Assembly: GCF_003402535.2 (NCBI RefSeq)
Contig: NZ_AP025171.1
Span: forward strand, 2,418,001-2,482,000
From: Cupriavidus sp. P-10
GTDB taxonomy: Bacteria; Pseudomonadota; Gammaproteobacteria; Burkholderiales; Burkholderiaceae
Length of the DNA: 64,000 nt
Direction: 5' to 3'
Shown: piece after piece, positions 1,865-4,654 of the stretch
Layout: each line of letters starts with the position of its first letter
Position numbering within the stretch: position 1 is the first letter of the stretch
Program-made: the position numbers and the translations under genes
The notes under the pieces: generated by a model
The model's input: only the letters and a program-made list of their open reading frames with translations
Told to the model about the DNA's origin: nothing
Database searches by the model: none

Positions 1865-1878
1865 TTGACAGCCATCAA
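1865..1878 (+). promoter_or_regulatory. FNR/Anr-type box upstream of nrdD
   Basis: The sequence TTGAC-AGCC-ATCAA differs from the FNR consensus TTGAT-N4-ATCAA at one base. It sits about 95 bases before the nrdD start, an expected place for oxygen-responsive activation of an anaerobic reductase. The -10 element and transcription start were not fixed, so the class of activation is open. Confidence 0.75.
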
Positions 1879-1915: not shown

Positions 1916-1929
1916 CACTATATGTAGTG
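1916..1929 (+). promoter_or_regulatory. NrdR box 1
   Basis: CACTA-TATG-TAGTG is a perfect 5-bp-arm palindrome matching the NrdR core (consensus ACACWATATATWGTGT). NrdR represses ribonucleotide reductase genes when dATP is high. The second box starts exactly 31 bases downstream, the usual paired spacing of about three helical turns. Confidence 0.8.
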
Positions 1930-1966: not shown

Positions 1967-3742
1967 ATGCGCGACGCAGTGCAAACCGGCACGCCGACGG
2001 CACCGCCTGGCGGGCAGGTCGACGTGGCCAGCGCCATTGAGGAATACCTGGCCCAGCGCGACTGGCGCGTGCGCGCCAACGCCAACCAGGGCTACAGCCT
2101 GGGCGGGCTGATCCTGAACGTCGCCGGCAAGGTCACGGCCAACTACTGGCTATCGCATATCTTCAGCCCGGAAGCCGGGCAGGCGCATCGCGACGGCGAC
2201 CTGCATATCCATGACCTCGACATGCTTTCCGGCTACTGCGCCGGCTGGTCGCTGCGGCAGTTGCTGGCGGAAGGCTTCAACGGGGTGCCGGGCAAGGTCG
2301 AGGCGAATCCGCCGAAGCATATGTCGGCCGCTGTCGGCCAGATCGTCAATTTCCTCGGCACGCTGCAGAACGAGTGGGCCGGCGCGCAAGCGTTTTCCAG
2401 CTTCGATACCTACATGGCGCCGTTCGTCCGGCACGACCGCATGGACTACCGCGCGGTGCGCCAGGCGATGCAGGAGCTGGTGTTCAACCTGAACGTGCCG
2501 AGCCGCTGGGGCACGCAGACGCCGTTCACCAACCTCACCTTCGACTGGACCTGCCCGCAAGACCTGGCCGGCCAGGTGCCGTATATCGCCGGCGTGGAAC
2601 TGCCGTTCACCTACGGCGAGCTGCAGCCGGAGATGGACATGATCAACCGCGCCTACATCGAGGTGATGATGCAGGGCGATGCGCGCGGGCGCGCCTTTAC
2701 CTTCCCGATCCCCACCTACAACATCACGCCGGACTTCGACTGGGACCATCCCAACGCCGAGCCGCTGTTCGAAATGACGGCGCGCTACGGGCTGCCCTAC
2801 TTCCAGAACTTCATCAATTCCGACCTGGAGCCGCACATGGTCCGCTCCATGTGCTGCCGCCTGCAGCTGGACCTGCGCGAACTGCTCAAGCGCGGCAACG
2901 GCCTGTTCGGCTCGGCCGAGCAGACCGGCTCGGTCGGCGTGGTCACGGTCAACTGCGCGCGCCTGGGCTACCTGCACCGGGGCGACGAGGCCGGGCTGAT
3001 GGCGGCACTGGACCGCCTGCTGGCGCTGGGCCGCGACGTGCTGGAAGACAAGCGCCGCGTGGTGCAGCACTACATCGACGCGGGGCTGTATCCCTATACG
3101 CGCCGCTATCTCGGCACGCTGCGCAACCACTTCAGCACGCTCGGCGTCAACGGCGTCAACGAGATGATCCGGAATTTTTCCGGTGATGCCGATGACATCA
3201 CGACGCCGGGCGGTCACGCCATGGCATTGCGGCTGCTCGACCATGTGCGCGCGCGCATCGGCGAATTCCAGGAAGCGACCGGCCATCTCTATAACCTGGA
3301 GGCAACCCCGGCCGAAGGCACCACCTACCGCTTCGCGCGCGAGGACCGCAAGCGCTGGCCGGACATCCTGCAGGCCGGCACGGCCGAGCAGCCTTACTAC
3401 ACCAACTCCAGCCAGCTCCCGGCCGGCTACACCGACGACCCGTTCACCGCGCTGTCGATGCAGGAAGCGCTGCAAGGAAAGTACACCGGCGGCACCGTGC
3501 TGCACCTGTACATGAACGAAGCCCTCTCCAGCGCGCAGGCTTGCAAGGCGCTGGTCCGGCGCGCGCTGTCACGCTTTCGCGTGCCGTATATCACCGTCAC
3601 ACCCACCTTCTCGATCTGCCCGAAGCACGGTTACCTGAGCGGGCGCCACGAGTTCTGTCCCCGGTGCGATGCCGAACTGCTGGCACGCATCCCAGCCGCG
3701 GCCAGCGCGCCGCAAACCCAACCTGAAGAGGAGCTCTCATGA
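1967..3742 (+). CDS. nrdD: Class III (anaerobic) ribonucleoside-triphosphate reductase, catalytic part without glycyl-radical tail
   Basis: The 591-residue protein aligns with the NrdD barrel: DLHIHDLDMLSGYCAGW (Cys91) and RSMCCRLQLD (Cys296/297, position of the thiyl-radical cysteine). It has no ATP-cone domain at the N-terminus; the barrel starts near residue 30. Near the C-terminus a zinc-site-like set is visible (C551, H554, C564, C567), but the protein then ends in a polar tail with no RVxGY glycyl-radical motif. That motif is in the next gene, whose ATG overlaps this stop (ATGA). The enzyme would reduce NTPs to dNTPs in the cytoplasm without oxygen. A strong AAAGGGG site supports the start. 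An FNR-like box and paired NrdR boxes precede it. Confidence 0.95.
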   Translation: MRDAVQTGTPTAPPGGQVDVASAIEEYLAQRDWRVRANANQGYSLGGLILNVAGKVTANYWLSHIFSPEAGQAHRDGDLHIHDLDMLSGYCAGWSLRQLLAEGFNGVPGKVEANPPKHMSAAVGQIVNFLGTLQNEWAGAQAFSSFDTYMAPFVRHDRMDYRAVRQAMQELVFNLNVPSRWGTQTPFTNLTFDWTCPQDLAGQVPYIAGVELPFTYGELQPEMDMINRAYIEVMMQGDARGRAFTFPIPTYNITPDFDWDHPNAEPLFEMTARYGLPYFQNFINSDLEPHMVRSMCCRLQLDLRELLKRGNGLFGSAEQTGSVGVVTVNCARLGYLHRGDEAGLMAALDRLLALGRDVLEDKRRVVQHYIDAGLYPYTRRYLGTLRNHFSTLGVNGVNEMIRNFSGDADDITTPGGHAMALRLLDHVRARIGEFQEATGHLYNLEATPAEGTTYRFAREDRKRWPDILQAGTAEQPYYTNSSQLPAGYTDDPFTALSMQEALQGKYTGGTVLHLYMNEALSSAQACKALVRRALSRFRVPYITVTPTFSICPKHGYLSGRHEFCPRCDAELLARIPAAASAPQTQPEEELS

Positions 3743-3912
3743 ATACCGAATCGCGCCAGCCAGCCACGCCGGCCCTCGATCCCGCCCTGCGTACCCGCTG
3801 CGAGGTCTGGACCCGGGTGATGGGCTACCACCGGCCCGTTACGTCCTTCAACACCGGCAAGCAGGGAGAGTTCAATGAGCGGCGTTTCTTCACTGAAAGC
3901 GCCTGTCGCTGA
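3739..3912 (+). CDS. Separate 57-residue glycyl-radical subunit of NrdD
   Basis: This small gene encodes the missing C-terminal piece of NrdD: VWTRVMGYHRPV (radical glycine expected at Gly29), then FNTGKQGEF, the standard ending of class III reductases. Its ATG overlaps the nrdD stop in ATGA, a GAGGAG ribosome binding site lies just upstream inside nrdD, and its 3' end overlaps nrdG by 38 bases, so translation looks coupled. NrdG would place the radical on Gly29, and the peptide would dock into the large subunit. Cys21 may complete the zinc site whose other ligands are in the large protein. The start, overlap and motif are seen; the two-chain assembly is inferred. A sequencing frameshift is unlikely because both reading frames end and begin cleanly. 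Confidence 0.88.
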   Translation: MNTESRQPATPALDPALRTRCEVWTRVMGYHRPVTSFNTGKQGEFNERRFFTESACR

Positions 3913-4654
3913 CGGCCCCTGCCTCCCGGCCCGCGCCACGGTGGCCGTACCCGTGCCCGCGCCGGCGGCCGCCGCGTCATTGCGCGGCGGGCCGGCGCTG
4001 GCCGGGCTGGTGCCGTTCTCCAGCGTGGACTGGCCCGGACAGCTGGCGGCGGTGCTGTTTATCGCCGGCTGCCCGTGGCGCTGCGGCTATTGCCACAACG
4101 CCCACCTGCAGCGGCGCCATGCGGCCTATGCCTGGCCGTCGGTGCTGGACTGGCTGGCGACCCGCGCCGGGCTGCTCGACGGCGTGGTGTTTTCCGGCGG
4201 CGAGCCGCTCAGCGAAGCGCGCCTGCCGGAGCTGGCCAGGGCGGTGCGCGCACTCGGTTTCAGGGTGGGGCTGCATACCGCCGGCATCTATCCGCGCCGG
4301 CTCGCCGCGCTGTTGCCGCAACTGGACTGGGTCGGGCTGGACATCAAGGCGGATTCCGCCGGCCACGATGCGCTGGTCGGACGGCCCGGCGGCCTGGCGC
4401 GCGTGCAGGCCAGCCTGGCGCTGCTGCTCGGCGCCGGCCTTCCATTCGAATGCCGGACCACGTGGGATCCCGCCTGCCTCAGCGAGCCGCGCTTGCTGGC
4501 GCTGGCACGCTCGCTGGCCGCGCAAGGCGTGCGCCGCTATGCCGTGCAGGCCTGCCGGACCGGCACGGCCACGGTGCCTGGCGCATCGTTGAGTGCGCCG
4601 GCGCGCGAGGCGCTGGCGTCATGGTTCGAGACGTTCTGCTACCGCGAAGGGTGA
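3875..4654 (+). CDS. nrdG: Anaerobic ribonucleotide reductase activating enzyme (radical SAM)
   Basis: The 259-residue protein carries the radical-SAM cluster motif C66-x3-C70-x2-C73 (GCPWRCGYCHN) and the SAM-binding SGGEP segment about 40 residues later. NrdG cleaves S-adenosylmethionine to make the stable glycyl radical on NrdD. It is the last gene of the nrdD operon. The chosen ATG has GGGAGAG ahead of it and overlaps the preceding small gene by 38 bases. The first 40 residues are Ala/Pro-rich and unlike the family core, so translation could begin a little later. The length fits longer NrdG proteins of this lineage. Confidence 0.93.
   Translation: MSGVSSLKAPVADGPCLPARATVAVPVPAPAAAASLRGGPALAGLVPFSSVDWPGQLAAVLFIAGCPWRCGYCHNAHLQRRHAAYAWPSVLDWLATRAGLLDGVVFSGGEPLSEARLPELARAVRALGFRVGLHTAGIYPRRLAALLPQLDWVGLDIKADSAGHDALVGRPGGLARVQASLALLLGAGLPFECRTTWDPACLSEPRLLALARSLAAQGVRRYAVQACRTGTATVPGASLSAPAREALASWFETFCYREG

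Follow-up and report, generated by a model that had tools for sequence, protein, structure and literature searches.

The class III ribonucleotide reductase (RNR) of Cupriavidus sp. P-10 very probably consists of two polypeptides that associate non-covalently, a conclusion drawn from the sequence of a 64,000-nucleotide stretch of its genome (the window; contig NZ_AP025171.1, positions 2,418,001 to 2,482,000) and from its relatives. NrdD is encoded there as two complementary parts, and their separation, their conservation, their co-occurrence and the closeness of the small gene to nrdG were all observed directly. A sequence-only reading of the window had suggested a two-chain radical enzyme. The same evidence supports the two chains, and we infer from it their docking, the activation by NrdG and the turnover of the complex.

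Organization of the nrdD locus

The features of the locus are as follows (positions in the window).

1865-1878, forward strand: box TTGACAGCCATCAA upstream of nrdD (pattern TTGAYNNNNRTCAA), which we take to be of the FNR/Dnr type
1917-1929, forward strand: box upstream of nrdD, presumably of the NrdR type (pattern match, one place, both strands)
1967-3742, forward strand: nrdD large chain, ORF of 591 aa
3728-3733, forward strand: GAGGAG ribosome-binding site of the small gene, read in the sequence, 5 bases before the small ATG
3739-3912, forward strand: small ORF for the putative glycyl-radical subunit, 57 aa; Gly29 codon at 3823-3825
3875-4654, forward strand: nrdG, radical-SAM activase of the NrdG2 type, longest ORF (TIGR02495, E 5.5e-55)

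The large chain matches the Pfam family NRDD (PF13597) over profile positions 2-534 of 562 (E 4.9e-170) and the small chain over positions 532-562 of 562 (E 7.8e-08, over the family cut-off). Since these matches cover the whole profile, the two ORFs together make up one complete NrdD. The NCBIfam model PRK08270, of which the large chain covers positions 99-659 of 684 (over the cut-off), gives the same division. Profile match and alignments place the catalytic domain and the finger loop SMCCR (C296/C297) in the large chain, along with the zinc-type residues C551, H554 or H561, C564 and C567. Neither a glycyl loop nor an ATP-cone was found in this chain by profiles or alignments. The N-terminal ATP-cone is also absent from the closest Cupriavidus relatives (592 aa) and present in many of the relatives listed.

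The small chain carries the radical motif R26-V-M-G29-Y. In a profile built from 17 such chains it aligns with the region of Gly621 in the NrdD of Thermotoga maritima (tmNrdD), a match that is weak on its own (E 0.27). Gly621 is named as the radical site of that enzyme in PMC4493059, which describes a zinc ribbon located between the barrel and the radical loop. The break in the window falls between zinc ribbon and radical loop. The sequence-only reading had described a large NrdD that stops soon after its zinc-site cysteines, and a motif on a separate small gene with an ATGA overlap, its own GAGGAG site and a 38-base overlap with nrdG. All of this was recovered: the large chain ends 24 residues beyond the last zinc-type cysteine, the two nrdD ORFs share ATGA at 3739-3742, and the 38 bases are counted from 3875, the start of the longest nrdG ORF. 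At four other loci (L045, L047, L051 and L054), a possible nrdG start has the same position relative to the small stop (-35).

PF13597 is the sole Pfam match of the small protein at E values up to 1, and the PFL-type Gly_radical domain was not found in this search. The motifs R-x-M-G and N-x-G-K are present in all 107 distinct small segments of the window's kind, which were drawn from 120 loci; invariant among them are R, C and E before the loop and R, M, G, R, P, N, G, K, E and R in or after it. The small gene is under purifying selection, with a dN/dS of about 0.06-0.16 (five within-genus comparisons of 50 codons each). The locus contains the NRDD catalytic domain, a glycyl-radical motif (on any chain) and the activase NrdG of a class III RNR. 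It departs from the usual form in that the glycyl-radical site is not C-terminal on the catalytic chain, a placement that the chemistry does not require.

Upstream of nrdD, the pattern TTGAYNNNNRTCAA has a single match in the 64-kb window versus 0.05 expected, and the NrdR-type pattern matches at one place versus 0.01 expected. A second, weaker copy of the latter was seen by eye about 31 bp downstream, near 1946-1961. Together these boxes (1865-1961) would fit an anaerobic induction of nrdD.

Proposed mechanism

In the mechanism that we propose, the large chain would supply the active site, the finger-loop cysteines and the zinc ribbon, and the 57-residue chain the glycyl-radical loop. The small chain would bind the large one non-covalently in the barrel, at the place that the C-terminal loop takes up in a one-chain NrdD. 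NrdG would then abstract a hydrogen from Gly29 of the small chain, and the resulting radical would generate the active-site thiyl radical as in ordinary NrdD. Because the radical site lies on a cheap, separate part, this part could be replaced or supplied in trans. By analogy with YfiD/GrcA, which serves pyruvate formate-lyase (PFL), we hypothesize that this is the benefit of the arrangement.

The genome (9.08 Mb, five contigs), whose closest named proteins among the matches listed are from Cupriavidus, contains no NRDD match beyond the two pieces. It has two matches to the class I/II large-subunit family and none to the PFL-type glycyl-radical family (PF01228), that is, no PFL partner of the kind that GrcA/YfiD has. 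This content bears on the possibility that the small protein is a mere repair part for oxygen-cleaved NrdD and that the large chain works alone. Such a role has a precedent in the published descriptions of YfiD for PFL, and stand-alone NrdD-type glycyl proteins do exist beside NrdDs that keep their own glycine (see below). Here, however, the large chain is without any glycyl loop and the genome search gave no second NrdD. If the known mechanism holds, the small chain is therefore indispensable, and we regard a mere repair role as very unlikely.

Conservation of the split

The small protein was found in 19 of 60 genomes, a set made up of the genome of the window and 59 relatives, and in no case did it form the end of a fused NrdD. 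The PRK08270-type large chain occurs in the same 19, and neither chain was found without the other; one further genome gave weak matches alone (22-24% identity). Six split large chains and one fused were aligned and used as query against GTDB genomes, which gave 562 confirmed loci. The best 80 were retained, a procedure that favours the window's kind; 79 of these are split, and the remaining one, L061, is cut by a contig end. Among 398 genomes of the window's phylum, 16 pass the PRK08270 cut-off, 13 of them split (one recognised by eye) and three fused. The small-chain profile matches 20 of the 398, with stand-alone frames in the same 13 split genomes and fused NrdD ends in the other seven. 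The same arrangement is present in several Cupriavidus genomes, in Beta-, Gamma- and Alphaproteobacteria and in Desulfobacterota.

A protein search returned 2461 database proteins similar to the small chain (E <= 1e-3; 31-100 aa, taken as candidates), some of which may be fragments. Among the 120 matches listed, most of those with a source name are called anaerobic ribonucleoside-triphosphate reductase, and the matches include proteins from Stutzerimonas and from Pseudomonas species other than P. aeruginosa. At one locus (G449; L105, 5804-7480) the small gene is present twice next to a single nrdD, the copies being separated by another ORF.

The small frame stands in all three relations (0, 1 and 2) to the large one. 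At the 79 split loci, the distance from the large stop to the chosen small start ranges from -10 to 237 nt (median 38), the start codon for these gap and length figures being picked in part for its ribosome site. Counted for the ATG closest to the motif, a ribosome site of at least 4 nt is present at 61 of the 79 loci, versus 346 of 3160 random ATGs (11%). In genome G043 (L029), nrdD lies about 9 kb away from a unit of the small gene and nrdG, and ORFs on the opposite strand occupy the interval.

These data weigh against a fused NrdD made by programmed frameshifting or read-through, in which the small ORF would give no separate protein. The ATGA overlap of the window genes could serve such a fusion, as could the single stop behind which the small frame lies in frame in some relatives. 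The changing frame and gap do not suit it, nor does a ribosome site of the small gene far above chance, and the 9-kb separation in G043 is hard to reconcile with it; we consider this reading slightly less probable still than a repair part.

A lower probability again falls to the idea that the large chain has another radical source and that the small ORF merely couples translation to nrdG. The two genes overlap in the window, nrdG lies within 900 nt at 72 of the 79 split loci, and a possible nrdG start is found at or before the small stop at 53 of them, as coupling would have it. Against it stand the radical motif, kept in 107 of 107 distinct segments, and viral copies without nrdG found nearby, though the search detects NrdG poorly.

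A sequencing error or decayed gene, for which nothing speaks beyond the unusual arrangement, is practically negligible: it is refuted by independent assemblies from several Cupriavidus, across classes of Proteobacteria and from Desulfobacterota, and by the low dN/dS of the small gene.

Split and fused NrdD in Desulfobacterota

The split of the window has counterparts in the phylum of a Geobacteraceae locus, here called Desulfobacterota. Eighty of its 297 genomes pass the PRK08270 cut-off: 20 are split, 58 are fused and two fall in neither class (one masked, one broken by a contig end). Twenty-six of the 58 fused genes were read directly, one of them being interrupted further upstream, and 32 were assigned from a profile match that reaches the model end, with the loop in the same frame where listed. 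The 20 split genomes comprise three that are window-like, ten with a CPxPH-type ribbon, three with overlapping genes and four with RVCGF, whose small chain has about 48 residues. All four kinds of split lie at the boundary of zinc ribbon and loop. The kinds other than the window's were found at the following loci.

L151, L152, L154-L163, L169-L172 and L184: the three non-window kinds of split, Desulfobacterota

The NrdD frames of L169-L172 and L184 are about 1000-1500 aa long, far above normal, and possibly contain inteins.

A tree was built from 59 large chains, 28 of them fused, 19 selected from the window's kind and 12 belonging to the other three kinds, with the zinc tail and the loop left out. 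It gives five changes between fused and split, at least four of them forced by well-supported branches. A single transition was rejected on this tree (p-AU 1.1e-57). A quick tree of 90 rows gives four changes, at least three of them forced. Two fused members, on an Actinomyces plasmid and in genome G429, branch close to the base of the window's kind, which makes re-fusion indistinguishable from separate splits.

Oxidase counts give no support to oxygen exposure as a general reason for the split. Heme-copper oxidase (PF00115, over cut-off) occurs in 5 of 20 split versus 11 of 58 fused Desulfobacterota, counts that leave out the two genomes of neither class, one of which has the oxidase. Class I NrdB (PF00268) occurs in 1 of 20 versus 0 of 58.

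The sequence-only reading had suggested a genuine gene split and had proposed to look in relatives for small proteins with the motif next to nrdD. The split is borne out by conservation, co-occurrence, variable frames, the separated locus of G043 and several independent changes between split and fused, and the search found a small gene beside nrdD in 79 of the best 80 named loci.

Stand-alone glycyl proteins in viruses and Desulfobacterota

When IMG/VR was scanned with the aligned small chains, 127 relatives were found; the best 80 were studied (L193-L272, L291-L368). The loop lies in an open frame of fewer than 300 codons at 78 of these 80 loci (60 distinct core segments); of the other two, one has it in a 362-codon frame and one escaped the motif. 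An N-terminal four-cysteine element was found in 9 of the 78 small ORFs (7 distinct). The flanks extend up to 10 kb per side, with a median locus of 11.6 kb (at least 15 kb for 32 of the 80, below 6 kb for 12). A tblastn search of the best 80 loci with their flanks, using six NrdDs and one NrdG as queries, detected no catalytic part of NrdD; an NrdD that is divergent or lies beyond the flanks could have escaped it. The control, 18 viral loci fetched for their large chain, gave NrdD at 18 of 18 and NrdG at 2 of 18, so missing NrdG near the viral copies is weak evidence. Short motifs had suggested a large chain at four viral loci and a fused one at another; tblastn gave no NrdD there.

ORFs were listed for three viral loci. 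By PHROGs, two of them have a tail tape-measure protein close by, and the neighbours at the third belong to phage families. Four of five proteins tested, the window's and three viral ones, match phrog_4132, which is labelled as of unknown function and for which the present data suggest one. The fifth, from the archaeal virus ANMV-1, matches the NrdD family phrog_487.

Viruses also carry the large chain, of which a PRK08270-like form was examined on 18 viral contigs. Twelve of these have the split with the small gene next to it, and the other six showed no small gene or no clear pair in the stretch examined. The two viral lists have no contig names in common (compared by eye), a comparison that is uninformative because the patterns of the small-chain scan miss the variants that adjoin viral large chains.

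Among 50,697 isolated phage records, tblastn with the small protein gave two matches, the ANMV-1 virus and a phage in which the match falls within a full-length NrdD of 802 aa. The stand-alone protein of genome G524 as query gave one plasmid record, within an annotated full-length nrdD, and one phage record, within the same 802-aa NrdD. ANMV-1 encodes a stand-alone glycyl protein of 144 codons (L190:2725-3159), annotated as anaerobic ribonucleoside triphosphate reductase. This protein and that of genome G744 (L174) are of a different stand-alone kind, with CxxC pairs before the loop, and G744 also has a fused NrdD. Further stand-alone proteins were found in Desulfobacterota.

L175 and L176 (G586), L177 (G557), L178 (G524), L179 (G662) and L180 (G747): stand-alone glycyl proteins, Desulfobacterota, about 100-125 aa

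In G586 (two copies), G557, G524 and G662 they occur beside a full-length NrdD below the PRK08270 cut-off. The motif RITGY is retained in the NrdDs of G557, G524 and G662, and in that of G586 (L185) the glycine is lost in its one assembly, as RVTSH stands in place of RITGY. G747 has a stand-alone copy too, and its NrdD frame is broken by a stop. These Desulfobacterota proteins are possible spare parts. Given the stand-alone proteins of viruses, Desulfobacterota and ANMV-1, it is plausible that such proteins provide the radical in trans, as YfiD and T4 Y06I do.

We give about even chances to a wider scenario, in which the NrdD family would have parted or joined its radical part several times at one boundary, some Desulfobacterota would keep stand-alone copies beside one-chain NrdDs (one with a lost glycine and two copies), and the phage copies would supply or renew the radical of the host RNR during anaerobic infection.

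Annotation and literature

The split is already present in RefSeq annotation, as had been suspected from the sequence: the small gene is called 'nrdD' in the records of Shinella, C. necator H16, Sulfuricystis, Azospira and Bradyrhizobium. C. necator H16, a laboratory strain with genetics, has the same split as the window in its RefSeq record, where the small gene is H16_RS32675. The open literature searched gave no report of a deletion of the small gene alone (Siedow 1999 lies outside it). NrdDG is essential for complete denitrification in H16, according to a passage of PMC2864759 that cites Siedow 1999. The same paper lists the enzyme of strain CH34 as Rmet_5137 and Rmet_5139. The number between the two is presumably the small gene, and the CH34 locus (L004) contains one.

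We found no description of a two-chain class III RNR in the open full-text literature searched; a prior one is possible, as most subscription papers lie outside it. Class III RNR is described as bearing the radical on the catalytic chain. In the passages concerned, papers on RNR evolution and class III structure describe the glycyl domain as C-terminal, and the split RNRs mentioned are of class II. One of these papers dropped all sequences below 400 residues before analysis. The relevant passages of two papers on P. aeruginosa RNRs do not mention a class III split, and one terms the class II split exceptional. A passage of PMC8683613 counts only two validated spare-part proteins, both for PFL, and the authors suggest that other glycyl-radical enzymes may have them.

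New in this study are the four kinds of split at one boundary, with a single transition rejected, the free-standing small proteins of viruses and the stand-alone copies beside full-length NrdD in some Desulfobacterota. The enzyme described here appears dependent by design on a protein that resembles a spare part. With a radical-site protein of about 6 kDa, the activase step, loop docking and oxygen damage could be examined independently of the large chain.

Comparison with known systems

The proposed two-chain enzyme shares with the one-chain NrdDs of E. coli, T4 and T. maritima the catalytic domain, the finger-loop cysteines, the zinc ribbon, the loop R-x-x-G-Y ... N-x-G-K and an NrdG alongside. 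It differs in that the radical loop is a separate gene product, with the break between zinc ribbon and loop. YfiD/GrcA and T4 Y06I, the spare parts of PFL, are likewise small stand-alone glycyl-radical proteins with a large partner that lacks a working glycine. However, the window protein matches the NrdD family PF13597 and not the PFL-type family, and its partner has no loop in its gene, whereas PFL loses its loop through oxygen cleavage. The split NrdJa/NrdJb of Pseudomonas aeruginosa is also an RNR encoded as two chains, but it belongs to class II and is without a stable protein radical. Finally, the RefSeq small proteins named 'nrdD' and the PRK08270 large chains are the same two proteins as those of the window, under annotation names alone.
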